From positions 1 to 32,387 of IMG/VR virus record IMGVR_UViG_3300031524_000051: DNA of 32,387 bases; one strand, 5' to 3'. Of the stretch, positions 478 through 27,477 are shown one piece after another (position 1 is the stretch's first letter; each line of letters begins with the position of its first letter). The notes below the pieces were generated by a model that saw only the letters and a program-made list of their open reading frames with translations, was not told the origin of the DNA and ran no database searches. The stretch comes from a virus. The position numbers and the translations under genes are program-made.

Positions 478-765
478 ATGGAACACATTCTCGATTCCCA
501 GCTCGACGCGACGGTGACCCCGCCGCAGCAACCGGGATTCCACCTTCCCTACGCCGTGGCCGCGCCCTTTGTGGGCCTCATCATCGCCGTGGCGACGTGG
601 AGCTTTGCGCAGAGCGCGCGCCTGACGGCCGTCGAGACCGAGATCCGGCACCTGGCCACCTCCGACCAGGTGGCCGCGCAGACCCAGAAGCTGGATGACT
701 TCCAGCGCGAGTACGAACGCGACCGCATCAACGACCGCATCGCCACCGAACGCGAGGCAAAATAA
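478..765 (+). CDS. Small single-TM protein with C-terminal coiled coil; lysis/holin candidate
   Basis: 95 aa. The N-terminal about 24 residues are polar, residues 25-44 form one hydrophobic segment (PYAVAAPFVGLIIAVATW), and residues 48-95 are a charged helix with heptad-like spacing, probably a coiled coil. This layout is common in phage membrane proteins next to lysis enzymes. The ATG at 478 has a purine-rich AAAAGGGG upstream and lies downstream of the predicted promoter; a GTG at 379 would add a basic tail that looks untranslated. The stop overlaps the next start (TAATG), so translation is probably coupled to the lysis enzyme. It could be a holin, a spanin-like protein or an unrelated virion membrane protein; no sequence match decides this. 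Confidence 0.65.
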   Translation: MEHILDSQLDATVTPPQQPGFHLPYAVAAPFVGLIIAVATWSFAQSARLTAVETEIRHLATSDQVAAQTQKLDDFQREYERDRINDRIATEREAK

Positions 766-1133
766 TGGGCTTTGAATATCAGCAGTCCACCGGGCAACTG
801 ACCGGCACCGTCACCGCCGAAGGGTACAGCGGCAACGGCGCGGGCCTGAACAACCCAGCCATGCAGCAGGTCCACGCGGTGGGGCCGTTGCCCCAGGGCA
901 CCTACACCATCCAGCCGCCGCATGCGGACCCGAAGGTCGGGCCGATTGCCATGCACCTGGTCCCGGCGCCGGCCAATGAGATGTTCGGGCGCGGCGATTT
1001 TCTGATGCACGGCGACAATGCCGCCATGAACCACACCGCCTCCGAGGGCTGCATCATCCTGCCCAAGGCTGCACGCATCGCCATCGGCGCAGCCGTGCTC
1101 GCCGGCGATACCCAGCTCTCCGTGGTGGCTTGA
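765..1133 (+). CDS. Lysis enzyme of the tlde1/DUF2778 (L,D-transpeptidase-like) type
   Basis: 122 aa. Residues 40-49 (GPLPQGTYTI) are the typical lead-in of DUF2778/tlde1-type proteins. The catalytic region is MHGDN at residues 81-85 and S-E-G-C at 93-96, the His...Ser-x-Gly-Cys arrangement of the L,D-transpeptidase fold, with H82 and C96 as predicted active-site residues. Family members act on peptidoglycan peptides as L,D-transpeptidase, carboxypeptidase or endopeptidase. In a phage lysis cluster the natural role is endolysin. It has no signal peptide, so it would need a holin-type pore, perhaps the product at 478 or 3702. It is coupled on both sides by overlapping stop/start codons. Family assignment is good; the exact bond cut is inference. 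Confidence 0.75.
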   Translation: MGFEYQQSTGQLTGTVTAEGYSGNGAGLNNPAMQQVHAVGPLPQGTYTIQPPHADPKVGPIAMHLVPAPANEMFGRGDFLMHGDNAAMNHTASEGCIILPKAARIAIGAAVLAGDTQLSVVA

Positions 1134-6850: not shown

Positions 6851-8152
6851 TTGAGCACAACTTTAGTCGGCGCGGTCCTTAATCACGGCCCCGAGAACGG
6901 ACCTCTCAGCCATGCCATGGTGGCTCTTGCAGACAATGCGGACGATTACGGTTTGGCGTGGCCTTCGCTCGAAACAATCGCGCTGAAGAGCCGGTGCGAT
7001 GTGCGAACGGCGATGCGCCGCCTGAAGGCGCTGGAAAAGGCAGGATGGATCACCGTCCATCGCCGCGCGAAGGGGAAATACAGCGTTTACGTGATCGATA
7101 TCGAGAAGCTCGGGGTGACGCTGAACGCGAAGAGCCGGCGGTCGGGATTCTGGGATGATCTGGAGAAAAAAATTAAGGCCCGGCGAGCGAAAGAAGGGAT
7201 GCTGAAGCTGGCTCCGGCTAAAAAGTCACATGACAAAATGTCACCTCAAATCGGCCTTCCGCTGGATGTTTCAGGTGACACCAGCGGTAAGTTTGAGGTG
7301 ACAACCACGGCAATTTCACATGACACCAGTGGTAATTCCCTTAAAGTACTTAACCGTAAGGAACCATCATTGAACCAAAGAACCTACCCTACCCTCCCTG
7401 GGAGGGAGGGTGAGATCGACCCGGTTGATCGCGGACGATGGAACAGCCTGCTGGTGGAACTCAAGCAAGGGCTCTGCTCGACACCGGCGAACGTCGAGCG
7501 GGCGAAGCGCTGGAAGGCCATCAAGCCCGGGGAAAACGACTACGACGCCTGCTTCCGCGCGTGGTGGCTGCTCGAAGTGGAGCGCACAGCGAGCGGACTG
7601 CGGCTGATCACGCACGCCGGCGACGAGCCCACAACCGAGGCTGGCATAGCGAAGTACGAAAAGCGGCTGCAGAGCCTGGTCCGCAAACACTTCGAACTGG
7701 GCGCGGACGCTGAAGTGGCCTTCGAGGTCCGAGTCGGGGACAAAACAAGCAACGGCCACACCGCCGATGAAGGGCAAAGCAACGGCAACGGCGCGCCGCA
7801 CGGCGACACGGAGAGCCACGGCCCGAATGGCGAAACGCTGGTGGACATGCTGCTGGGCGCGATGCCCGATCCGTGGCACCAAGTGAAGTGCGAGCTTGCG
7901 GCCCAATTGCAGAAGCTCGGCAAGCGCGACCTGGGCGACAAGCTGGACTGGTATCGCCAGTCGATCGAGCCCACGCGGCTGTTGCGGATCGAGGACGAGG
8001 GAGGCAAGCCAGTGTGGAAGGTGCTCAGCGACGCGCCAAAGAAGACGCGCGCGGTGATGTCGCTGCTCGGCCGGCACTTCAATCTGGCGGTGAATAAAGT
8101 CGTCGGCGGCGAAGTGCAGATCGTGGTCTTGAACCCGGAAGGCGGCGAGTGA
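6851..8152 (+). CDS. Replication initiator with N-terminal winged helix and internal origin
   Basis: 433 aa. The start is a TTG with an excellent AAAAGGAG 6 nt upstream. Residues about 15-75 (SHAMVALADNADDYGLAWPSLETIA, TAMRRLKALEKAGWITVHRR) form a HTH_36-type winged helix of the kind found in phage replication initiators such as lambda O. Residues about 125-190 are a low-complexity linker encoded by the iteron and hairpin region 7226-7411. The C-terminal half is helical; its end (DPWHQVKCELAAQLQ to VVGGEVQIVVL) faintly resembles a DnaA N-terminal-like fold, a weak impression. It would bind its own gene and recruit host helicase. No helicase or loader gene is seen nearby. A micro-ORF and partition genes follow. 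Confidence 0.75.
   Translation: MSTTLVGAVLNHGPENGPLSHAMVALADNADDYGLAWPSLETIALKSRCDVRTAMRRLKALEKAGWITVHRRAKGKYSVYVIDIEKLGVTLNAKSRRSGFWDDLEKKIKARRAKEGMLKLAPAKKSHDKMSPQIGLPLDVSGDTSGKFEVTTTAISHDTSGNSLKVLNRKEPSLNQRTYPTLPGREGEIDPVDRGRWNSLLVELKQGLCSTPANVERAKRWKAIKPGENDYDACFRAWWLLEVERTASGLRLITHAGDEPTTEAGIAKYEKRLQSLVRKHFELGADAEVAFEVRVGDKTSNGHTADEGQSNGNGAPHGDTESHGPNGETLVDMLLGAMPDPWHQVKCELAAQLQKLGKRDLGDKLDWYRQSIEPTRLLRIEDEGGKPVWKVLSDAPKKTRAVMSLLGRHFNLAVNKVVGGEVQIVVLNPEGGE
7226..7411. other. Predicted replication origin inside the initiator gene
   Basis: Three consecutive direct repeats of 23, 23 and 22 bp lie at 7268-7290, 7291-7313 and 7314-7335. Each carries TTTSANRTGACA followed by a CCA/GGTAA-like tail, with TGACA spaced 23 and 22 bp apart. 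Upstream is an inverted pair (TGACA, AAA, TGTCA at 7231-7243), 45 bp from the first repeat. Downstream, 7336-7385 is AT-richer than its surroundings, followed by a perfect 8-bp hairpin (ACCCTCCC at 7391-7398 with GGGAGGGT at 7404-7411). Iterons, AT-rich stretch and initiator gene in one place match the lambda-type origin inside O and iteron plasmids. Confidence 0.75.
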
Positions 8153-8290: not shown

Positions 8291-8319
8291 GAACCTTCGG
8301 AATGGGGAGCGTGAGCACG

Positions 8320-8973
8320 ATGATCATCACCGTAGCGAGCTACAAAGGCGGCGTGGGCAAGACAACCACCGCGGTGCACCTGGCCGCATACCTGGAGACG
8401 CTGGCGCCGACGCTGCTGCTGGATGGCGACCAGACACGCAACGCGACCGCGTGGGCGCAACGTGGCGACGGCTTCCCTTTCCGCGTGGCGACGATCGACC
8501 AGGCGGCGAAGCTGGCGCGCAGTTACAACCACATCGTGATCGACACCGGCCAGCGCCCCAGCGGCGACGACCTGAAGGCCGCGGCCGAGGGATGCGACCT
8601 GCTGGTGGTGCCCACGGTGCCGGCGGCGCTGGAGACCGATGGCCTGGGCCAGACCATCCGCGCGCTGCAGGGCATCGACGCCGCCTTCCGGGTGCTGCTG
8701 ACCTCGGTGCCTGCATACGCCGCCAAGGAGTCCGCCGAGCTGCGCGCGCTGCTGGCCGCGGCCCGTGCGCCGGTGTTCGCGCAGGAGATTCCGCGGCTGG
8801 AAGCCTTCAAGAAAGCGGCGGCGGCGGGCTGCATCGTCGACAAGGCCGAGGACCGCAACGCCGCGCGGGCGTGGGCAGCATACGTCGCCGTCGGAGGTGA
8901 ACTTCGTTCCGTTCTCGACGCTGCGCGTGAAAGATCGAAAGACAGCGACCAACGCATGGAGGCCCACGCATGA
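8320..8973 (+). CDS. parA: ParA-type partition ATPase
   Basis: 217 aa, short and lacking an N-terminal DNA-binding domain, as in type Ib plasmid ParA. The deviant Walker A KGGVGKTT spans residues 9-16 with signature Lys9 and Lys14, Walker A' is LLLDGDQ at 32-38, and Walker B is HIVIDTG at 71-77. ParA proteins segregate low-copy replicons by ATP-dependent patterning on the nucleoid. The start at 8320 (MIITVASYKGG) has GGGGAG at 8304-8309; ATG 8302 and GTG 8311 are in frame but add an atypical tail. It overlaps the RHH gene by ATGA. Its last about 25 residues are encoded by a dispersed repeat copy (8897-8943), so the C-terminus has probably been replaced by repeat sequence. Confidence 0.85.
   Translation: MIITVASYKGGVGKTTTAVHLAAYLETLAPTLLLDGDQTRNATAWAQRGDGFPFRVATIDQAAKLARSYNHIVIDTGQRPSGDDLKAAAEGCDLLVVPTVPAALETDGLGQTIRALQGIDAAFRVLLTSVPAYAAKESAELRALLAAARAPVFAQEIPRLEAFKKAAAAGCIVDKAEDRNAARAWAAYVAVGGELRSVLDAARERSKDSDQRMEAHA
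8897..8943 (+). repeat. Dispersed CTTCG element, copy 3, inside the parA 3' end
   Basis: CTTCGTTCCGTTCTCGACG, then GCGCGTGAAAGATCGAAAGACA. It matches the intergenic copies but is read here as codons of ParA (residues after about 193: GELRSVLDAARERSKDSD). Confidence 0.75.
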
Positions 8974-9266
8974 GCACGCCGAAGAGCACACTCGCCTCCG
9001 CATTCGCGGGCATCAAGGCAGCGCAGTCACCCGAAGCCGGTAGTGACCCCCGACGTAAAAGCGCGCAAGAGGCGCCGCATCTGGTGGCGAAGCCGCCGGC
9101 AGCAGCCGGCAAGAGCGCGAAGAGCACCAACCCGGACTTTGAGCCGGTGAAGATCTACATCCGCAAGGACACGCGCAAAGCGGCCGCGCGGTTGTGGGAG
9201 GATCGCGACGGCGGCGACTTCTCCGAACTGGTTGAGCATCTGCTGAGCGAGTACCTGGGCACTTAG
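8970..9266 (+). CDS. Ribbon-helix-helix centromere-binding partner of ParA
   Basis: 98 aa. Residues 1-55 are a basic, Ala/Pro/Ser-rich flexible tail. Residues about 57-98 (EPVKIYIRKDTRKAAARLWEDR, FSELVEHLLSEYLG) form a strand-helix-helix RHH fold. Small proteins of this layout (ParG- and omega-type) bind the centromere repeats through the RHH dimer and stimulate ParA ATPase with an Arg finger in the tail; Arg residues near position 28-29 (DPRRKS) are candidates. Overlap with parA (ATGA) and absence of a large ParB support a type Ib locus. The specific binding repeats are inferred, not shown. Confidence 0.75.
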   Translation: MSTPKSTLASAFAGIKAAQSPEAGSDPRRKSAQEAPHLVAKPPAAAGKSAKSTNPDFEPVKIYIRKDTRKAAARLWEDRDGGDFSELVEHLLSEYLGT

Positions 9267-10345: not shown

Positions 10346-10524
10346 CCCAGCACTATCCCAAGGGGACGATCAGCATTCGGAAGTGGTGCAACACCTGCGG
10401 CAGGGAGACGGAGCACTCGGTCAGCGACGGCAGGGTAGGCCGCTGCGTCCAGGACCACCATCCGCCCAGCCAGCCGAAGCCGGCAAAGCCCGCGAAAGCA
10501 GAACAGGGGGGATTGTTTCCATGA
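10342..10524 (+). CDS. 60-aa zinc-ribbon-like protein
   Basis: C16-x2-C19, then C35 and His39/His40 form a possible four-ligand zinc site (KWCNTCGRETEHSVSDGR, RCVQDHH). A Pro/Lys-rich tail follows. ATGA overlap at both ends. It resembles small WCNTCGRETEH-type zinc proteins in phage genomes. Function unknown; nucleic acid binding is plausible. Confidence 0.6.
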   Translation: MTQHYPKGTISIRKWCNTCGRETEHSVSDGRVGRCVQDHHPPSQPKPAKPAKAEQGGLFP

Positions 10525-10724
10525 AGATCAAGAGCACGGAGATTACGGTGAACGGCGCGACCTGGAACACGAACCAGCGGCGCCGGGACATTGCCTGCAC
10601 GGTCTGCGAGGTGTCGACCAAGGGCCGGCTGAACGGCAAGCCGTACTGCCTCGATTGCGGAATGAAGGAGCTGCTGAAGCCGCTCTCCGAGGTTAAGGAT
10701 TTTCTGGGGGGTTTGTTCGCATGA
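10521..10724 (+). CDS. 67-aa protein with CxxC...CxxC zinc motif
   Basis: C26-x2-C29 and C43-x2-C46 (ACTVCEVS, PYCLDCGM) form a standard zinc-ribbon pair separated by a GRLNGKPYC turn. The C-terminal helix LLKPLSEVKDFLGGLF could mediate dimerisation. ATGA overlaps join it to both neighbours. Function unknown. Confidence 0.6.
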   Translation: MKIKSTEITVNGATWNTNQRRRDIACTVCEVSTKGRLNGKPYCLDCGMKELLKPLSEVKDFLGGLFA

Positions 10725-11338
10725 GGCCGGCGAAGGTGGTGGTGCTGGCGTGCAGCGATGAAGGGAAGCTGAGTGTGCGCCGGTTTCTATTCCGCACGCG
10801 GGGCTATCGCGTGGCCTCGGCAGCGACCGCGGAAGAAGCGCTGGCCATCCTCGGGATCGGGGTCGGCGGCCTGGGCAAGGCGGGCCCGGATGCCGAAATG
10901 CAGCAGGTGGATCTGCTGCTGGTCGAATTGCCGCTGCAGGGCTTCGGCGCGGAGGTCCTGCGCCAGGCCAAGCGGCTGCTCCCGAGTTTGCGCACGCTGC
11001 TGCTCTGCCACCATACCGAAGTAGAGTACGACCGCGAGATCGCCGATGTCATCCTGCCGCCGGAGGCGGGGCGGGCGGAGCTGCTGGAGCGCGCCAAGAT
11101 TCTATGCATACGCAAACGCGGCCCGACGAAGAAGCCGCCGGCGAGGGCGCTGCCACCATTCGGCAGCAAGAGCGACGGCGTGCATCTCTCCGACCTGCGC
11201 GCGGCGCGGGAAAGGCACGGCGCGACCGACCCGAGCTACTGGAAGATGGTCAACGGGGAGCGCGTTCACTTCGACCCAAATGTGACCATGGGCGCGGAGT
11301 TTCTGGAGTACGGGCCGAAGAAGAAGGGAGCAGCATGA
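10721..11338 (+). CDS. Pseudo-receiver domain protein
   Basis: 205 aa. Residues 5-130 have the CheY-like alpha/beta pattern: VVVLACSDEGKLSVRRFL (strand 1, helix 1), YRVASAATAEEALAIL, VDLLLVELPLQG, LRTLLLCHH and ADVILPPEA. The phosphoacceptor Asp is replaced by Glu69, a known phosphomimic position, the conserved Lys is absent at ILPPE, and Thr/Ser is replaced by His97/98. It should not be phosphorylated normally and may be locked on. Residues 145-205 form a separate tail (DGVHLSDLRAARERHG onward) of unknown fold. An unusual member of a phage early operon, coupled by ATGA. Confidence 0.65.
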   Translation: MRPAKVVVLACSDEGKLSVRRFLFRTRGYRVASAATAEEALAILGIGVGGLGKAGPDAEMQQVDLLLVELPLQGFGAEVLRQAKRLLPSLRTLLLCHHTEVEYDREIADVILPPEAGRAELLERAKILCIRKRGPTKKPPARALPPFGSKSDGVHLSDLRAARERHGATDPSYWKMVNGERVHFDPNVTMGAEFLEYGPKKKGAA

Positions 11339-12206: not shown

Positions 12207-12908
12207 ATGTTCAAGAACACGGTGCTGAAGGCGCTGGGCGACGACGTGATCGAGCGGCTGAAGTTGCGGCCGGTGACCTTCGCGGTTCAGCACGAGTTGG
12301 AATATCCAGGCACGCCCATCGACAAAATCTACTTCGTCGAAGAGGGCATGGCGTCGATGACCGTCACCTTCTACGACGGGACACAGGTCGAAGTGGGGAT
12401 GTTTGGCTGCGAGTCGATTATCGGGATATCGGCGTTGATGGGGACGAAACAAAGCCTGAACCGCGCCTACACGCAAATCGCCGGCAAAGGCTATAGCTCG
12501 CCGGTGGAGCAGGCGCGGCGGGAGTTCGCGCGCGGCGAAGTATTCCAAATGCTGGCGCTGCGCTACGTGCAGGTCCAGCTTGTCCAGTCGATGCAATCGG
12601 CCGCCTGCAACGCGCGCCACAACTTTGAGCAGCGCCTGGCTCGGTGGCTGCTGATCTGCGCGGACCGCGCGCATAGTGAAACCTTCGAGATGTCGCAGGA
12701 GTATATGGCGCAGATGCTGGGCACGACGCGATCGACAATTTCAATCGCGGCGGGGAAGTTGAAGGAGTTGCGGCTGGTCGAATACACGCGCGGCGTGGTG
12801 CGAATCATCAATCCAGCGGGACTCGAAAACGTGGCGTGCGAGTGCTACCGGGTCATCAAATACCACCTGGACAACTATGACGGGTTTGACAGCCGGGTTG
12901 TTTCTTAG
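12207..12908 (+). CDS. Crp/Fnr-type transcription regulator
   Basis: 233 aa. Residues 1-140 form a cNMP-type sensor jelly roll (FAVQHELEYPGTPIDKIYFVEEGMASMTV, VEVGMFGCESIIG), then a dimer helix, and an HTH_Crp winged helix about 160-215 (MSQEYMAQMLGTTRSTISIAAGKLKELRLV). The cyclic-nucleotide binding residues are not clearly conserved and there is no Fe-S cysteine cluster like Fnr, so the ligand is unknown. In this position it may control late or lysogenic genes. No ribosome binding site is seen; TCTAAT at 12196-12201 ends 5 nt before the ATG, suggesting a leaderless transcript. Confidence 0.75.
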   Translation: MFKNTVLKALGDDVIERLKLRPVTFAVQHELEYPGTPIDKIYFVEEGMASMTVTFYDGTQVEVGMFGCESIIGISALMGTKQSLNRAYTQIAGKGYSSPVEQARREFARGEVFQMLALRYVQVQLVQSMQSAACNARHNFEQRLARWLLICADRAHSETFEMSQEYMAQMLGTTRSTISIAAGKLKELRLVEYTRGVVRIINPAGLENVACECYRVIKYHLDNYDGFDSRVVS

Positions 12909-14187: not shown

Positions 14188-14790
14188 ATGCCGAAGATCA
14201 AACAGCCCGCGAAGCACGATGCCCTGGCGATCGACGACGTTGCGGCCCTCCTTTTTGTCACCGACCGCACCATTCGCAACTGGCTCAAAGAGCGTGACAT
14301 GCCCTCTGTCGCCGACGAGCGCGGGCGGCGCTTCATCTGGTCGGACGTGCTGCCCTGGTACGTGAAAATGAGGGCCGACGATGACGGAAATGCACGGAAG
14401 CGAGCCGTCTCCTGGCCGCCCACAGCACCGGTCGGTGAGCCGACAGGTCCTGATGCCGGTTGGTCGGAGCTGCAGAAGCTCCAGGAGCGCAAGAATGAGC
14501 TACGCGAGGCTGGCGCCGAGGCGGTCCTGCGCAATGCGATCGCGTCGGCGGATCTCCGCGAGCTCGAGCTGGCGGAGCGCCGCGGCCAGGTAGTCGCCGT
14601 CGACGACGTCGCCCGCACCATGCAGGACACCGCAAAAAACCTTCAGACCAAGATCCTCGGCTGGCCCACGCTGATGATCGGCCGTGTCTTCGGGCTCCGC
14701 GATCGCAACCAGCTCTTCGGCGTACTGACCAGCTCCGCGCGCGACCTCTGCGCCGACCTGGCCAGCGGGAGTAAGGCGCCCGATGCCTAG
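14188..14790 (+). CDS. Terminase small subunit (Nu1-like)
   Basis: 200 aa. The N-terminal MerR-like winged helix (ALAIDDVAALLFVTDRTIRNWLKERDMP, GRRFIWSDVLPWYV) is typical of Nu1-type small subunits and binds cos/pac DNA. A Pro-rich linker follows at about 75-90, then a helical coiled oligomerisation region (ELQKLQERKNELREAG onward). The next gene overlaps its end by 8 nt. The paired TerL is of the lambda gpA type, consistent with cos-type packaging. No ribosome binding site precedes the ATG. Confidence 0.8.
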   Translation: MPKIKQPAKHDALAIDDVAALLFVTDRTIRNWLKERDMPSVADERGRRFIWSDVLPWYVKMRADDDGNARKRAVSWPPTAPVGEPTGPDAGWSELQKLQERKNELREAGAEAVLRNAIASADLRELELAERRGQVVAVDDVARTMQDTAKNLQTKILGWPTLMIGRVFGLRDRNQLFGVLTSSARDLCADLASGSKAPDA

Positions 14791-16819
14791 CTTCCAGTCC
14801 AGCGCCGATTCACTCGCTGCCCTGCAGCGCGCCGTCGTTCTCTCTCTCGCGCTCCTGACCCCGCCGGCGGAGCTCACCGTCTCCGAGTGGGCAGACCTCA
14901 ATGCGCGCCTCCCGCCCGAGGGCGCCTCCGAGCCTGGCCAGTGGTCCACCGACCGCGCACCCTACCAGCGCGGCATGATGGACGTCGCCAACGAGCCCGG
15001 CATTGAAACCGCGGTTTACATGATCGCCGCGCAGTGCGGCAAGACCGCCTCGATGCTGAACACGCTCTTTTACTTCGTTTCGCACGCGCCCAGCCCGATC
15101 CTCTGGGTGATGCCGACCAAAACCCTCGCCGAGGATCTCTCGAAAGAGCGCATCGACACCGCGATCCGCGACACGCCGGCCCTCGCACCGCTCTTCGGCA
15201 AGAGTAAAACCCGGTCCAGCGGCGCCACCATTCTCAAAAAGAAGTTCCCCGGCGGCTTCATGGCCCTGGCGGGAGCCAACGCACCCAGCACCCTGGCCAG
15301 CCGGCCGGCGCGGGTGCTGATCTGCGACGAGGTTGACGACTTCCCGGCCAGCTCCGGGACCAAGGGCGACCCCATCACCATCGCCGACGCGAGAACCACG
15401 AACTTCTGGAATCGTTTCAAGGTCTATGCCTCCACGCCCAGCATCAAGGGCGCCAGCCGCATCGAGAAGCTGCTCGCCAACTCCGACATGCGCGTCTACA
15501 TGGTCGCCTGCCCTCACTGCCACACCTACCAGGAGCTGGTGTGGGAGTCGCTGAAGTGGCCTGGCCCCAACAGCAACAGCGGCGCGACCAGGCATGAGCC
15601 GAGCCGGTGTTACTACGTGTGCGTCCAGGGCTGCGAGATCCTCGAGGCCGATAAGCCGGACATGCTGCGCGACCGCGACGTCGAGTTTCCCGCGTACTGG
15701 CACAAGACCAACCCGGGTGGCGGCGACGGCCACACCGCTGGCTTTACGCTCAGCGTTCTCTACTCGCCCTGGAAGACGTGGGAGTCGCTGATCGGCGACT
15801 GGCTGAAGGCGTACAAAAATCCGCAACAGCGCAAGGCCTTCATCAACACCCGGCTGGCGCGCACCTATGAGGCCTTCGGCGAGACCGTCGACGACACGGC
15901 CCTGATGAAGCGCCGCGGCATCTACGAGGCCGAAGTACCGGCCGGCGCCCTGGTCCTGACCCTCGGCGTCGACGTCCAGGCCGATCGCATCGAGGCGGAG
16001 CTGGTTGGCTGGGGCGCGGATGGCCAGTCCTGGTCCATCGACTACTTCATTCTTCGCGGCAACCCGGCGATGGCCGAGGCCTGGCTGCCGGTCGACGAGC
16101 TGCTCCAGCGCACCTGGCTGCACGCCTCGGGCGCGCGCCTGCGCATCGCGTGCGCCTTCATCGATTCTGGGTATCACACCGCCCAGGTCTATAAGTTCTG
16201 CCGTCCGCGCCAGGTGCGCCGCGTCTTCGCTTCCAAGGGCATGGCTGGCCCGGCGGTCCCGCTCACCCGGCCCAGGGCACAGCGCGCCCACAAATCGCGG
16301 GTGGAGCTGCGCATCGTCGGCATCGACACGGCCAAGGAGGCGCTCTACGCCAATCTGAAGGTCGAGGAGATCGGGCCGAGCTACTGCCACTTTCCTTCGG
16401 CGTACAAAAACGAGCAGGGCACCGTCGTCCCGCGCAACACCTACGACCGCGATTACTTCGCGCAGCTCACGGCCGAGAAGCTGGTCAGCGAAATGGACGG
16501 CATGACGCCGGTCCGCAAGTGGGTCAAAAAGCAGGAGCGCAATGAGGCCCTCGACTGCCGCGTCTACGCGATGGCCGCGCTCGACGATCTCAATATCCGC
16601 GATTGGACCAAGCTGGCGGCGAACCTGCAGCAGATGGCTGCACATTTCAAACAGACGCCGCCGGCCGGAGATCCGCGGAGCGTGCCTGACGCCCCTCCCG
16701 AAGCGATCACGCAAACCCCGGAGATCTCCGCCGGCGACATCCCCATCCTGACAGGCGCAAAGAAGAAGGGCGCCAGGCTCGCCGCGAAGACGAGCTGGGC
16801 CGGGGAGTGGGACCGTTAG
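14783..16819 (+). CDS. Terminase large subunit (lambda gpA family)
   Basis: 678 aa, a usual length for this family. The opening (WADLNARLPPEGASEPGQWSTDR) is characteristic of gpA. The ATPase carries a modified Walker A IAAQCGKTA (residues 81-89) and Walker B VLICDE (178-183). A CPHCH zinc motif follows in the middle. The C-terminal nuclease has LGVDVQADRIEAELVGWG and FIDSGYHT as metal-binding segments. It cuts and packages concatemers into proheads with the Nu1-like subunit and portal. Confidence 0.92.
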   Translation: MPSFQSSADSLAALQRAVVLSLALLTPPAELTVSEWADLNARLPPEGASEPGQWSTDRAPYQRGMMDVANEPGIETAVYMIAAQCGKTASMLNTLFYFVSHAPSPILWVMPTKTLAEDLSKERIDTAIRDTPALAPLFGKSKTRSSGATILKKKFPGGFMALAGANAPSTLASRPARVLICDEVDDFPASSGTKGDPITIADARTTNFWNRFKVYASTPSIKGASRIEKLLANSDMRVYMVACPHCHTYQELVWESLKWPGPNSNSGATRHEPSRCYYVCVQGCEILEADKPDMLRDRDVEFPAYWHKTNPGGGDGHTAGFTLSVLYSPWKTWESLIGDWLKAYKNPQQRKAFINTRLARTYEAFGETVDDTALMKRRGIYEAEVPAGALVLTLGVDVQADRIEAELVGWGADGQSWSIDYFILRGNPAMAEAWLPVDELLQRTWLHASGARLRIACAFIDSGYHTAQVYKFCRPRQVRRVFASKGMAGPAVPLTRPRAQRAHKSRVELRIVGIDTAKEALYANLKVEEIGPSYCHFPSAYKNEQGTVVPRNTYDRDYFAQLTAEKLVSEMDGMTPVRKWVKKQERNEALDCRVYAMAALDDLNIRDWTKLAANLQQMAAHFKQTPPAGDPRSVPDAPPEAITQTPEISAGDIPILTGAKKKGARLAAKTSWAGEWDR

Positions 16820-17922: not shown

Positions 17923-19497
17923 ATGAATGAGATTTTTAGCCTCGACCTTTCCGAAGCCAAGCTGGCCGTCATGGACTCGCGCGCTACCACCCAGGCCGCA
18001 ACCCTCGCCCGCACCGCGGCAGAGTCCCGCAAGCGCGACCTCAACTTCCGCGCCGGCCGGGTCACCCGCACCACTGAAGACTGGGGCACGTCCAACAGTT
18101 CGGCCGACCTCGATCTCTGGGCCAATTTGTATGGGCTCCGGGGTCGCGCCCGACGCCTCAGCACCAATAATCCCATCATCCGCAAATACCTCCGCATGTG
18201 CCAGAAGAACATCGCCGGCGACAAGGGGATTCAGTTGCAGATGAAGGTGCCCATGAAAAAGGGCAAGAAAATCAACAAAAAGCTGTCGATGGAGATCGAG
18301 GCAGCGTGGAAGCGCTGGACTGCCCGCGAGTTCTGCACCGTCACCGGCAAAATGAGCTTTGCCGAAGCGCAGCGCTTCGCCATCGAGCAGTGGAAGCGCG
18401 ACGGCGAGTGTCTGTGCCGCATGGTCACCTACGACCGCGGCAACCCGTACAACTTCGCGCTGCAGTTCTTCGATCCCGACCAGCTCGACCTCAACTACTT
18501 CATGTATCAGATGCCCAACGGGAACCAGATCCGCATGAGTGTGGAGACCGATGCCTACGGCAAGCCGGTCAACTTCCACCTGTGGAAGCGCCACCCGGCC
18601 GAGTACTCCACCGCGCCGCAGTTCCGCGTCGTGGTGCCCGCCCAGGAGATGGTCCACCTCTTCTTCGCGCAGCGTGTCGGCCAGACCCGCGGTTATCCGG
18701 AGATGGCGCCGTCGATGATCGCGATCCACATGATCGGCAAGTACTCGGAGTCGGAGGCCATCGCCGCGCGCACCGCCGCGGAGAAGCAAGGCTTCTTTGA
18801 GTCCGCCGCCGCCACCGACGAGAGCTACACCGGCCCGCGCGACGAAGAGAACATGCTCAGCATGAAGTCGGAGCCGGGGATGTTGGAGCAGCTCCCCGCC
18901 GGGGTGCAGTTCAAGGCGTGGGACGCCAACCATCCGACCCAGGCCTTTCCGTTCTTTATGAAGTCGCTCACCCGGCTCGCCGGAGCGGGCCTCGACGTCA
19001 GCTATGAGTCGCTGGCCAACGATCGCGAGGGTGTGAACTACTCCAGCATCCGCGCCGGGCTGCTCGATGAGCGCGATACCTGGCGCGTCGAGCAGGATGT
19101 CTTCAAGGCCGGCTTCATGCGGCCCATCTTCGAGGCGTGGCTGCAGAACGCCTGGCTCGCCGGCGAGATCAAGCTCGACGGCCTGCCCAGCGACTACTTT
19201 GAGTTCGCCAGCTTCCATGCGCGAGGCTGGCCGTGGGTGGATCCGCTCAAGGATGCGCAGAGCGCGGTCCTCCAGGTCGAGAACGGATACGAGGCGCAGT
19301 CCGACCAGATGGCTGAGGCGGGCCACGACTTCGAGAGCACCATCGACCGCATCAAGTACGAGCAGGATTACATCCTGGCCTCGGGCGTGAAGCTGGGCAC
19401 CGACACCAAGGGCATCGCCGACACCGCGACCGACACCGAGGCCGATGAAGCCGCGGCCGACAGCGGCGGCAAGAAACCGGAAACAGGAGGCAACTGA
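17923..19497 (+). CDS. Portal protein (lambda gpB family)
   Basis: 524 aa, typical for lambda-type portals. Recognisable segments are GRARRLSTNNPIIRKYLRMC (about 70), the core PEMAPSMIAIHMIGKYSESE, the tunnel/stem region AWDANHPTQAFPFFMKSLTR, YSSIRAGLLDERDTWRVEQ, and the C-terminal WPWVDPLKDAQSA followed by an acidic tail. Twelve copies form the DNA gate at one capsid vertex and dock TerL. The 3' end is coupled to the next small gene (TGATG). Confidence 0.9.
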   Translation: MNEIFSLDLSEAKLAVMDSRATTQAATLARTAAESRKRDLNFRAGRVTRTTEDWGTSNSSADLDLWANLYGLRGRARRLSTNNPIIRKYLRMCQKNIAGDKGIQLQMKVPMKKGKKINKKLSMEIEAAWKRWTAREFCTVTGKMSFAEAQRFAIEQWKRDGECLCRMVTYDRGNPYNFALQFFDPDQLDLNYFMYQMPNGNQIRMSVETDAYGKPVNFHLWKRHPAEYSTAPQFRVVVPAQEMVHLFFAQRVGQTRGYPEMAPSMIAIHMIGKYSESEAIAARTAAEKQGFFESAAATDESYTGPRDEENMLSMKSEPGMLEQLPAGVQFKAWDANHPTQAFPFFMKSLTRLAGAGLDVSYESLANDREGVNYSSIRAGLLDERDTWRVEQDVFKAGFMRPIFEAWLQNAWLAGEIKLDGLPSDYFEFASFHARGWPWVDPLKDAQSAVLQVENGYEAQSDQMAEAGHDFESTIDRIKYEQDYILASGVKLGTDTKGIADTATDTEADEAAADSGGKKPETGGN

Positions 19498-19930: not shown

Positions 19931-21913
19931 ATGGCAGAACTCGCAGCGGCACAGAAGATCACCAAGCAGCTCCCCCCCGTCAAGCTCCCCATGCAGAGCC
20001 GGGCCTTCAGCGTGCGCGCAGCCGCGCCGGCCGAAGGCGCGGACGACAATGTCGTGCCCATCACGTTCTCCTCGGCGAATCCCGTCAAGCGGATGACCTG
20101 GGGCGGCATGTGGTGGAACGAGGTGCTGAAGCACTCTGGCGGCGCGGTAAAAACTGACCGCCTCACCCAGGGCCTGGCGGTGCTGGTCAATCACGACGCC
20201 AACCAGCGCGCCGGGATTTTGCAGGATGGAGCCATCCATGACCAGACCGGCAGCGGCAATATCCGCTTCAACACTACTCAATTCGGGAAGGACGTTGCTA
20301 CCGAGGTGCGCGAGGGAACTCTCCCGTATATCTCCGTTGGCTACATCGTCCACAGCGAAGCCCGCGCTGAAGACATCGACCCAGCCGACGACGAGGACCC
20401 GAACTATCTAGGCACCTTCGAAGCCGACTCATGGGAGCCGATCGAAGTTTCCCTCGTCGCCATCCCCGCCGACCCCAGCGTCGGCGTCGGGCGCGGCCTT
20501 TCAGACCTTCCGCTTTATCCGGTGCGCTTTGCAGGCATGCCGGCAGATCCGCCGGCAGCAGCCGGACGCAGCACCCAGGAGCCTCACATGCCCGAAGCAG
20601 TCATCGCCGTCGTCTCTGACAATACCGTCGCCCTCAAGGCAGAGCGCGAGCGTTGCGCGCAGATCGCTCTCCTGCAGCGCCAGTTCCCCGAAGTCCTTAC
20701 CCGCGAGCTGGCCGACACCGCCATCAACGAGGGCCACACCCGCGATGCAGTCGCGTCCATGGTGCTCGATAAGAAGCGCGAGAAGGAAGCCACCCTCAAC
20801 GCCGGCGCATCGGCCGTCACGCTCAGTGCCAAGGAAGCCCGCGCATACGACTTCCTCGCCGTGATGCGCGGCGATCGCAGCGTCGAGCAGCCCAGCCTGG
20901 AGAAGGAAATTTCCGACACGCTGACCAAGACGCTCGGCCGCGCCACCGGCAACATCTTCATCCCCACCAACCAGCCCATCTTCCGGATGACCAGTGACGA
21001 GCGCGCAGCGCGCACCCGCGCCGGCCTCTACACCGGCACCTCGGGCGCAGGCGGCGCCACCGTGGCCACCGAGCTGATCAGCTTCCTCGACTTCCTCCGC
21101 CCGGCGCTTCGGCTGCCGGGTATGGGCGCGGAGTTCATGGGCGGCTGCACCAGCAACTTCGCACTGCCCAAGATGACCGGCGACGCCGGCTTCAACTGGG
21201 TGGGCGAGAATCCGGGCGCGGACAACACCGACGTCGACCCTACCTTCGGCCAGGTCTACTTCAGCCCGCTGCAGGCGATCGGCTCCACCAGTTGGTCGCG
21301 CCAGTTGCTGGTGCAGTCCACCATCGACATCGAGGCCAAGGTGCGCAACGCGCTGGTATTGCGCGCGGCCATCGGCATCGAGACGGCGGCGCTTGCCGGC
21401 ACCGGCGGAACCCAGCCCACCGGCCTGCTCACCACCACCGGCGTCCATGTGGTCGCGCTCGGGACCAACGGCGCCACCCCCACCAAGCAGAACTACATCG
21501 ACATGTTGACCGCGTGCTTCGTGGCCAACGCCGCCCTGGGCGAGCAGAAGTATCTGCTCACTCCGGAGATCGCGGGCTACCTGGCCGGGCTGCCGGAACT
21601 CGGCAACACCATCGCGCTGCCCACCTTCACCTACGCGGCGGATGGCAAGGGCCGCATCAACGGGCACGAAGCTGCCTGGTCGAACCTGCTGCCGAAGACG
21701 CTCGTCAAGGGCATCTCGGGCGCGGTTTGTCACGCGGCCATCGGTGGCAGCTTCAACGCATTGACGATCGCCGAGTGGGGCGCGATGGAGATCATCCTCG
21801 ACCCCTACACGCTGGCCCGCCAGGGAATGATCAAGATCATCGCGCAGTTCCTGGTGGACTCCAACCTCACCTATCCGCAGGCCTTCTCTGTGGCCCTGGA
21901 CCAGCTCGTCTAG
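19931..21913 (+). CDS. Prohead protease-major capsid protein fusion
   Basis: 660 aa. Residues 1-200 are an HK97-type S78 prohead protease: His88 in LAVLVNHD, Ser135 in LPYISVGY and the WEPIEVSLVAIPADP segment at 168-182. After a Pro/Ala linker (about 200-219), residues 220-350 form a helical scaffold-like delta region (AERERCAQIALLQRQFPEVL onward), and residues 350-660 are an HK97-fold capsid with FIPTNQPIFRM and ALGEQKYLLTPEIAGYLAGL stretches. Protease-capsid fusions are known in some siphoviruses. Full-length fusion could release capsid by self-cleavage, or capsid may be made from the internal start at 20588. Confidence 0.85.
   Translation: MAELAAAQKITKQLPPVKLPMQSRAFSVRAAAPAEGADDNVVPITFSSANPVKRMTWGGMWWNEVLKHSGGAVKTDRLTQGLAVLVNHDANQRAGILQDGAIHDQTGSGNIRFNTTQFGKDVATEVREGTLPYISVGYIVHSEARAEDIDPADDEDPNYLGTFEADSWEPIEVSLVAIPADPSVGVGRGLSDLPLYPVRFAGMPADPPAAAGRSTQEPHMPEAVIAVVSDNTVALKAERERCAQIALLQRQFPEVLTRELADTAINEGHTRDAVASMVLDKKREKEATLNAGASAVTLSAKEARAYDFLAVMRGDRSVEQPSLEKEISDTLTKTLGRATGNIFIPTNQPIFRMTSDERAARTRAGLYTGTSGAGGATVATELISFLDFLRPALRLPGMGAEFMGGCTSNFALPKMTGDAGFNWVGENPGADNTDVDPTFGQVYFSPLQAIGSTSWSRQLLVQSTIDIEAKVRNALVLRAAIGIETAALAGTGGTQPTGLLTTTGVHVVALGTNGATPTKQNYIDMLTACFVANAALGEQKYLLTPEIAGYLAGLPELGNTIALPTFTYAADGKGRINGHEAAWSNLLPKTLVKGISGAVCHAAIGGSFNALTIAEWGAMEIILDPYTLARQGMIKIIAQFLVDSNLTYPQAFSVALDQLV
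20577..20590 (+). promoter_or_regulatory. Internal ribosome binding site and start for free capsid protein
   Basis: AGGAG at 20577-20581 lies 6 nt before an in-frame ATG at 20588 (Met220 of the fusion), exactly at the protease-capsid junction. It would produce a 441-residue scaffold-plus-capsid protein, while the fusion start at 19931 has no such site. The layout recalls lambda C/Nu3 nested initiation. Confidence 0.6.
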
Positions 21914-25155: not shown

Positions 25156-27477
25156 ATGGCAACCAAGGGCGTAGTCATCCAGATCACCGGCGATGGGGCC
25201 AGCGCAGCCAAGGCGCTGGAGATGGTCGATGCCCACCTTAAGCAGACGGCCGAAGAGGCCAAGAGCTCGGGCTCGTCGATCTCGTCCGCGCTGGGCGGCA
25301 TACAGAACGCGCTGGGCACGCTCGGGATCTCGGTGGGTATCGGCGCGGCCATCTCCGAGCTGAAACAGATGATTAGCACCAGCGTCGACCTCGGTGTCGA
25401 GATTGGCCATCTCTCGCAGAAGACCGGCATCGGCACCGAGACCCTCTCCGGGCTGAAGTATGTCTCCGACGTGACCGGGGTCAGCTTTGAATCCTTGCAG
25501 CGGGCGAGCAAGAAACTTTCCACCGAGATGCTGGATGCGGAAGAGGGCAAGAAAGCGGCGATCCAGAGCTTCGGCCTGCTCGGCATCAGTGTGGAGCAGG
25601 TTCGCGCCCACTCCAACGATCTCTACGGGATGCTGGAGATCCTCGCCGATAAATTTCAGACGATGCCCGACGGTCCGCAGAAGCTGGCCATCGCCACTCA
25701 ACTGCTGGGCAAGACCGGTCTGGACCTGATCCCGATCCTCGACCAGGGAAGCGCCGGGCTGGCAAAGTTCAAGGCGGAGGCCGAATCGCTCGGCTTGGTG
25801 CTGGATGCCGCCGGTATCGCCAAGTTGGAGGCGATGCATGCGGCCGAGGTAAAGCTCGATGGAGCAACTCAGGGGCTGGCTCTATCGTTGACCAGCGCAC
25901 TGAGCCCGGCACTTACCGATATGGCCAGCGCTGCTGAAAAAGGTATTGAAAAACTTCGTCAACTGATGGTAGCGTCCGGCAATGCCGGTATGGAAAATTT
26001 CAGTAGCTACCGGACCGTAAAGACAGCCACAGACTACAAGCAATATGTTCCGCAGAGCGTGACGGCGATCAGTGAGTCGAACCTGGTTCCAACCGCTATG
26101 GCGGCGCAGAAAGCTGCCGACGCTGCCCAGGCGCAGGCGGTGGCACTCGACGCGAAACACAGCAAAGGCCTCGTGTCGAAGAAGGAATATGAGAAGCAGA
26201 AGCTCGCGGTGCAGCAGGAATACTATAGCCAGTCGCAGGCCGCCGCGGCCGCCTATTATCTACGTGAACAGTCCCTTCACGATGCTGCCCTCAAATCTGG
26301 AAACGAGGCTGATCGGGCTACTTATCATACGATGATGCTCCGCCACGGTGCCGTTATGGAGCACGACACCGAGATGCTGGCGCAGCTAGCACCAAAGGCA
26401 CCGGCGCTCAACATTTCCGGGGACGACGACGGCGGCAAAGGTACCGCGGCGGTGCAGGCGGCTGCGGTCCCGATCGATAAGTCGGTGGCCGCGCTGGTGG
26501 CTGCGCGCCAGAAGGCCGCGATCGATGCGCTGCACCAGATGCAGGAGCTGGCCCGCGAAGCGCCTCCGGCCGCCGTCGATGTCTCTTCGATGGCGGGGAT
26601 CGAGAAACAGAAGCAGCAGGATGCGGCGCTGGCGGCGCTCGACCTGAAACGCACAGCCATGCAGCGCGAGTCCGGGCTGGTGGAGACCCAGGTGCAGCAG
26701 CAGGCGCTGGCCGGGACCCTGAGCCAGCAGGCCGCGCTGAAGGACCTGGACGCCGAACATGCAGCGGAGATCGTTCGCCTGCAGGCGCTGGCGGCCGAGT
26801 ATGCCGCGTTCGGCGATGCCGGCCGCGCCGCCTACGCGGAGATCGAGGAAGAGATCACGCGCGAGATGGAGGCGGAGAAAAAAGAGGATAAGAAGTCCTC
26901 GGGCGTCGAGGCGGCCAAGCAGCTCGGCGACGGCATGACGTCGATGGCCGAGAAGATGGCGCGCGCCACCGGCACCGGCCGCGAAGGCTTCCACAAGATG
27001 TGCATGAGCATGGAGCAGGACCTGGTCGAACTGGCGGCGAAGTTCGCGATCAACGCGTTCCTCAAGCCGTTTATGACCGGGCTGGGCGCGGGAATGTCCG
27101 GGGGCGGGGGCGGGGGCGGCGTTGGCGGTGGGGGCGACGGCACCGACCTGGCCGCGCTGATCGGCAACGGGCATGCCGGCGGCGGCGACATGAACTCGCC
27201 AGGGATCGTTGGCGAGGAGGGCCCCGAACTGTTCTTCCCCGAAGGCCCCGGCACGGTGATGCCCAACGATGCGCTGCAGAACCTCAGCAAGAGCAGCGGC
27301 GGCGGCGGCGCGCCCAGCATGACCATGAACGTTACCAACGCCAGCAGCCAGCCGGTGACGGCGCGCCAGACCGGCAGCAGCTTCGACGCCGACACGCGCA
27401 GCTACATGACCCATGTGATTCTGGAGGACCTGAGCCAGAACGGTCCCATCTCCACTGCGATGCGCGCCGGCGCCTAG
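25156..27477 (+). CDS. Tape measure protein
   Basis: 773 aa, the largest gene of the window, with AGAGGGG before the ATG. The N-terminus is helical with a small hydrophobic segment (LGGIQNALGTLGISVGIGAAI), the middle a long Ala/Gln/Lys coiled region, and the C-terminus a Gly-rich linker then VGEEGPELFFPEGPGTVMP, a motif common at tape measure ends. Length implies a fairly short tail. Codons between about 25900 and 26350 are visibly more AT-rich than the flanks, suggesting recombination. Its stop overlaps the brnA-like stop on the other strand by 4 nt. Confidence 0.85.
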   Translation: MATKGVVIQITGDGASAAKALEMVDAHLKQTAEEAKSSGSSISSALGGIQNALGTLGISVGIGAAISELKQMISTSVDLGVEIGHLSQKTGIGTETLSGLKYVSDVTGVSFESLQRASKKLSTEMLDAEEGKKAAIQSFGLLGISVEQVRAHSNDLYGMLEILADKFQTMPDGPQKLAIATQLLGKTGLDLIPILDQGSAGLAKFKAEAESLGLVLDAAGIAKLEAMHAAEVKLDGATQGLALSLTSALSPALTDMASAAEKGIEKLRQLMVASGNAGMENFSSYRTVKTATDYKQYVPQSVTAISESNLVPTAMAAQKAADAAQAQAVALDAKHSKGLVSKKEYEKQKLAVQQEYYSQSQAAAAAYYLREQSLHDAALKSGNEADRATYHTMMLRHGAVMEHDTEMLAQLAPKAPALNISGDDDGGKGTAAVQAAAVPIDKSVAALVAARQKAAIDALHQMQELAREAPPAAVDVSSMAGIEKQKQQDAALAALDLKRTAMQRESGLVETQVQQQALAGTLSQQAALKDLDAEHAAEIVRLQALAAEYAAFGDAGRAAYAEIEEEITREMEAEKKEDKKSSGVEAAKQLGDGMTSMAEKMARATGTGREGFHKMCMSMEQDLVELAAKFAINAFLKPFMTGLGAGMSGGGGGGGVGGGGDGTDLAALIGNGHAGGGDMNSPGIVGEEGPELFFPEGPGTVMPNDALQNLSKSSGGGGAPSMTMNVTNASSQPVTARQTGSSFDADTRSYMTHVILEDLSQNGPISTAMRAGA

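Follow-up and report, generated by a model that had tools for sequence, protein, structure and literature searches.

The sequence analyzed here is an IMG/VR record of a tailed phage from soil, and its whole length of 32,387 bases is referred to as the window. In addition to terminase and structural genes, the window carries a pseudo-receiver gene that lies between the ParA-like and terminase genes in a compact plus-strand gene row (Table 1). At its start codon this gene overlaps the preceding gene, and its stop codon likewise overlaps an ATG of the following frame; it is plausible from position that the row constitutes an early operon. Two more IMG/VR records hold the identical gene. Related phages were gathered via their terminase, and three of them had enough upstream sequence for comparison, with the L019 homolog added later. 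As the earlier note on this DNA had advised, the same gene was sought in these phages and was found in each, with identities to the window protein of 43-47% in L008, 38% in L012, and 36% in L011. Several other genes of the window were also noted. The ParA-like gene and the small conserved ORF after it might indicate a plasmid-like prophage state, and no integrase was detected among the subset of window ORFs scanned. A copy of the Crp/Fnr-type regulator, 65% identical, occurs in the related phage L012 in a different place and on the opposite strand (L012:18-779 (-)). The Tlde1 / L,D-transpeptidase-like protein possibly acts in lysis or cell-wall modification.

Table 1. Genes of the window and parts of the pseudo-receiver gene, with positions in the window.
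Feature	Position	Strand	Evidence or remark
Tlde1 / L,D-transpeptidase-like domain protein	765-1133	+	Pfam E=1.2e-16
O-like replication initiator	6851-8152		upstream of the terminase and structural genes
ParA-like protein	8302-8973		upstream of the terminase and structural genes
ParA-like partition protein with the small conserved ORF after it	8302-9266	+	common to L008 and L126
67-aa CxxC protein	10521-10724	+	directly upstream; ATGA overlap with the pseudo-receiver start codon
Phage pseudo-receiver gene, 205 aa	10721-11338	+	open frame from ATG 10721 to TGA 11338; L008, L011, L012, and L019 each have a homolog at this place
Basic N-terminal motif MRPAK (host form MRPKK)	10721-10735	+	common to phage and host members
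REC core (residues 6-129), without a formed helix a4	10736-11107	+	profile against PDB, AlphaFold2 model, Foldseek
C11-S12 at the receiver acidic pair (DD)	10751-10756	+	alignment columns
E69 at the phospho-Asp position, final residue of b3	10925-10927	+	alignment, model
C96 at the Thr/Ser position, first residue past b4	11006-11008	+	alignment, model
P114 at the conserved Lys position	11060-11062	+	alignment
ELLERAKILCIRKRGPTKKP, the a5 end and basic tail common to the host family	11078-11137	+	RKRGP conservation; kept in members found without using the tail
C-terminal extension, residues 140-205 (about 64 residues)	11138-11335	+	helix 156-165 and b-hairpin 173-184 modeled with low confidence (block-mean pLDDT about 48-71)
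Crp/Fnr-type regulator	12207-12908	+	HTH_Crp_2 E=2.6e-15; partial cNMP-binding domain
GpA-type terminase	14783-16819		
Portal	17923-19497		
Protease-capsid protein	19931-21913		
Tape measure	25156-27477		

Taken alone, the window protein matched Pfam Response_reg at E=0.22, below the Pfam cut-off, gave a weak NCBIfam match, and reached PDB entries at E=0.041. A PHROGs search with it returned no match, a scan of genome contigs found nothing, and the annotated phage records of INPHARED contained no relative of either this protein or that of L008. A profile built from four phage homologs, by comparison, matched solved receivers in PDB at E=1.5e-6. For structural modeling, a single-sequence AlphaFold2 prediction (mean pLDDT 43) was discarded, and an AlphaFold2 model computed with 40 relatives was used. 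This model predicts the order b1 6-10, a1 14-26, b2 30-34, a2 37-46, b3 65-69, a3 76-86, b4 91-95, b5 110-112, and a5 118-129, with high confidence at residues 1-45 and 62-130 and a block-mean pLDDT of about 75-96 across the REC region, the loop 47-61 excepted. Foldseek searches with the model returned receivers (3crn_B, TM 0.81 on the target). Because the model alignment contains canonical receivers, the fold evidence is not independent of homology. The predicted assignment of the first ~138 residues to the receiver fold (REC, PF00072), a (beta-alpha)5 arrangement, is solid. The earlier note had described a clear CheY-like fold: the fold itself is borne out, and the predicted structure, whose comparison with receivers had also been proposed, is receiver-like, but the fold is not clear from the sequence of this protein by itself. 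The description of the C-terminal tail as unrecognized likewise stands, as no relatives of the extension were found among all sequences searched. The extension may add a second contact. A likeness of residues 172-193 to toxin A repeats in PDB (whole-sequence E 0.27-0.9) was judged to be a chance resemblance between short aromatic repeats.

The active-site columns were read from an alignment of 62 members, comprising 38 from phages or prophages and 24 from hosts. The window protein has lost all five catalytic positions, which are occupied by C11, S12, E69, C96, and P114; the Asp acceptor, the acidic pair, the Thr/Ser, and the Lys of a functional phospho-receiver are all absent from it. Both the alignment, which places no Asp there, and the model agree with the previous claim that Glu69 occupies the phospho-Asp position, and the reported loss of the conserved Lys was also confirmed, its column holding P114. 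The reported replacement of Thr/Ser by His did not hold, as the column contains C96 and H97 is the neighboring residue, and the loss of the N-terminal acidic pair had gone unmentioned. In the related phages of the window group, these five positions are occupied by CAHSK in L008, AANSE in L011, ASNSE in L012, and SANGN in L019. Under a published definition by which a receiver without the acceptor D is aspartate-less (PMC12632262), the window protein is, judged by its sequence, both a pseudo-receiver and an aspartate-less receiver.

Its closest cellular counterpart is a family for which we use the name KRGP receiver, coined here for a REC domain with basic MRPKK and RKRGPKK ends and no output domain. 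When the conserved end ELLERx[KR]...KRGP was scanned over 84,980 bacterial and archaeal species, one genome each, 102 places matched, of which 101 belonged to Acidobacteriota, mostly Acidobacteriaceae; this accords with the acidobacterial host assumed in the earlier note. The sole match outside the phylum (L119) is a Granulicella-like KRGP receiver on a bog metagenome bin labeled 'Rhodanobacteraceae', a contig that is probably misassigned. Of 40 Acidobacteriaceae genomes searched with a profile, 38 had a single strong copy (E 1e-33 or better), clearly separated from the next receivers at 1e-25, and a stricter DNA motif matched 49 of 200 genomes, none with two copies. Of 101 genomes drawn across the class, 20 matched, and the family search had already included every one of these 20; we strongly infer, rather than count directly, that the KRGP receiver is restricted to Acidobacteriaceae. 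The host proteins are stand-alone, canonical-looking receivers of the form MRPKKxILCVDDNEQ...DLVLxDLxMP...ADAFLPKG...ELLERIRVLVARKRGPKK, and their genes tend to be flanked, among 30 loci, by a PhzF-like gene (at 21) and a LolD-like ABC ATPase (at 17). Two chromosomal host clades can be distinguished, one of which, ending in SARKRGPRKG (e.g., L022, L078, and L035), has Gly/Ala at the Thr/Ser position while keeping DD, D, and K. The lack of Thr/Ser in one host clade suggests that the host switch may also be atypical.

The window protein is homologous to these host receivers (e.g., that of Terriglobus roseus, NC_018014, L030) over the REC core and both basic ends, and the two are alike in being stand-alone proteins without an output domain. 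It shares with the family the MRPAK start, the RKRGPTKK tail, its placement in the tree, and the short a4 region, which PDB alignments show to be ~4 residues shorter in the whole family than in canonical receivers. Whereas the host proteins keep DD, D, and K, and in one clade also Ser, the window protein lacks all five residues and bears an extra tail, and neither the intact phosphorylation site of the host type nor the chromosomal PhzF/LolD neighborhood is present in the window. Given the catalytic loss and the phage neighborhood, the window protein represents a derived phage branch rather than a host orthologue.

Among viral contigs, the motif scan gave 27 stretches, and a scan with the N-terminus only added 11 distinct members, so that about 38 non-redundant phage or prophage proteins could be compared with 24 host proteins. 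DD, D, and K are intact in 3 of the 38 phage members compared with 21 of the 24 host copies (Fisher p 1.8e-10, kinship ignored), and a test of catalytic loss on independent pairs pointed in the expected direction with five pairs only (median p 0.25). Only L133 among the phage members retains all five catalytic residues, whereas L125 (98 aa) has wholly lost the acceptor region. L145 and L148 resemble the second host clade, L148 being counted as phage by its IMG/VR listing alone. The carriers comprise window-type phages, L188 and L143 with an rve-type transposase and an AAA protein, which suggests that these two are Mu-like phages, and L138, L133, and L112 with DnaB or DUF5131 neighbors. The three clearly degenerate copies initially found on bacterial contigs (L083, L098, and L112) adjoin genes common to phage loci, and no phage-locus genes were found beside the chromosomal copies checked. 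As a separate observation, a GroEL-like chaperonin (Cpn60_TCP1 E=4e-44) is encoded at L145:5026-6867 (-) and also on L191, contigs that carry a phage receiver relative as well.

A single phage clade was rejected (AU test p about 5e-56). The tree requires seven phage/host label changes, of which well-supported branches force at least five; with bootstrap values not fully settled and four long-branch rows, this count is approximate. The tree being unrooted, some of the exchange may have run in the other direction. L126 is a window-type phage (portal 78% and TerL 65% identical) whose copy is nearest to the host-type protein L119, at 76% identity, and has DD, D, and S intact with the Lys segment deleted. 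Judged by these identities, L126 shows the capture process at an early stage. At the level of sequence, these comparisons establish common descent, the loss of the five catalytic residues, a retained REC scaffold with basic ends, and several separate phage clades.

The basic ends are the most constant part of the phage proteins. In the N-terminal motif, conservation in phages and hosts is 0.94 and 1.00 for M, 0.94 and 1.00 for P, and 0.97 and 0.79 for K5, and RKRGP is conserved at 0.91-1.00 in phage members. The mean charges of the N- and C-terminal ends are +3.2 and +4.7 in phages and +3.0 and +5.0 in hosts, with a negative core in both. The possibility that tail conservation was an artifact of a tail-based search was ruled out by members found without the tail: the terminase-anchored L008, L011, and L012 keep it, as do all 11 distinct members from the N-terminus-anchored scan (10 with KRGP and 1 with RRHGP). 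A comparison of the basic end with solved structures gave no match.

We propose that the window protein is a phage-held, phosphorylation-blind version of the acidobacterial KRGP receiver that would act on that regulator's own target, a reading to which we give an even chance of being correct. In receivers, b1 begins and a5 ends at one edge, opposite the phosphorylation pocket. The two basic ends would probably make one binding face, a geometry taken from the general fold, and this face would bind the target of the host regulator, either nucleic acid or an acidic protein. In the host protein, the pocket would tune target binding; the phages would keep the binding and discard the control, and the phage copy would occupy the target whatever the state of the host kinases. 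A decoy competing with the host protein is modestly preferred to a permanently active substitute for it. Alternatively, the ends could be conserved because they help the protein to fold or keep it stable. More tentatively, and with somewhat less than even confidence, we suggest that phages infecting a single bacterial family captured the same single-copy, family-specific signaling protein repeatedly and independently of one another, each time dropping the phosphorylation switch and keeping the target-binding ends. A phosphorylation-blind decoy directed at one host regulator would then be a recurrent strategy shared by unrelated phage types.

Other roles were weighed against this proposal. The captured protein might instead use its basic ends in the phage's own transcription, replication, or lysogeny, without acting against the host protein. 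Such ends could bind nucleic acid, and the window has replication and partition genes close to this gene, as L138 has DnaB directly beside it; however, the carrier phages differ widely in their replication and packaging genes, and the same host gene was drawn on several times, which together suggest that the system of the host is the point. We consider an independent regulator of this kind unlikely. Slightly less probable still is a kinase sponge, akin to the sequestration of a host kinase considered in the earlier note: by binding a histidine kinase or phosphotransfer protein of the host, the phage protein would keep phosphate from being passed to the host receiver. The helix a1 region of receivers contacts kinases, and parts of this helix and the next turn are conserved (S18, F22, L24, and V31). 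A precedent exists in PIT4, a phage protein that has been found experimentally to bind histidine kinase domains (PMC10714779). Conservation is nevertheless strongest at the basic ends rather than on the a1 face, large parts of the core are missing from L125 and L124, and no recurrent kinase gene lies beside the host gene in the flanks examined, ~1.5 kb on each side.

The earlier note had suggested that Glu69 mimics an activated receiver, by which the residue would fix the active state and the protein would be a constitutively active partner. A Glu in place of the D gives partial activation in many receivers and is frequent among pseudo-receivers, but the Thr/Ser and Lys are thought necessary to hold a phosphomimetic Glu (PMC12632262), and both are missing from all four Glu-bearing members (the window protein, L130, L136, and L137). 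The acceptor position, moreover, reads E, H, N, N, and N in the phage group of the window, relatives in the same genomic slot thus having His or Asn, and E, Q, C, A, R, G, S, K, Y, or D in other members. This variety, together with the state of the Glu-bearing members, makes phosphomimicry very unlikely. Also missing are DD, the Pro past the acceptor loop, and the conserved Gly. Hardly credible, finally, is the view that these are host receivers acquired by chance and decaying without function. Catalytic residues have been lost in many combinations, and the gene has changed more quickly than those around it, given that the window and L008 are 43% identical in the pseudo-receiver, 51-56% in the flanking genes, and 84% in TerL. 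Decay without function would not, however, be expected to leave open frames throughout, near-invariant ends, and a gene present in all four of the window-type phages first compared with enough upstream sequence. Values of dN/dS in phage pairs of 0.14-0.48, with synonymous sites near saturation in some pairs, further demonstrate that related phage copies are under purifying selection.

Pseudo-receivers are already known, as are viral receiver-like proteins such as cRec and annotated viral response regulators. The window protein resembles the reviewed bacterial pseudo-receivers in having a REC fold without catalytic residues, with Glu as a frequent replacement of the acceptor (PMC12632262). It differs from them in being phage-borne and stand-alone, with a single-copy host counterpart visible, and phages are not mentioned in that review. 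The cRec of jumbo phages, a cyclic-phosphate-processing receiver domain, is likewise a divergent phage-encoded receiver domain; unlike the window protein, it keeps the catalytic Asp, and it is linked to NAD/ADP-ribose enzymes (PMC7824862), domains of which had no Pfam matches among the window proteins scanned. PIT4 of Pseudomonas phage LSL4 is aimed at host two-component signaling (PMC10714779), which for the window protein is only a hypothesis. In the open-licence papers searched, we found no description of the KRGP receiver family or of a phage-wide pseudo-receiver set derived several times from one host gene.

If the proposal is true, an uncharacterized single-copy protein of Acidobacteriaceae, which are abundant soil bacteria, would be a repeated target of phage capture and modification. 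The natural variants would tell the parts of this protein that matter, its basic ends, apart from the phosphorylation site, which does not, and would offer an entry to the open question of how pseudo-receivers work without phosphate. MRPKK...RKRGPKK would, in addition, provide a sequence marker for Acidobacteriaceae phages in metagenomes.
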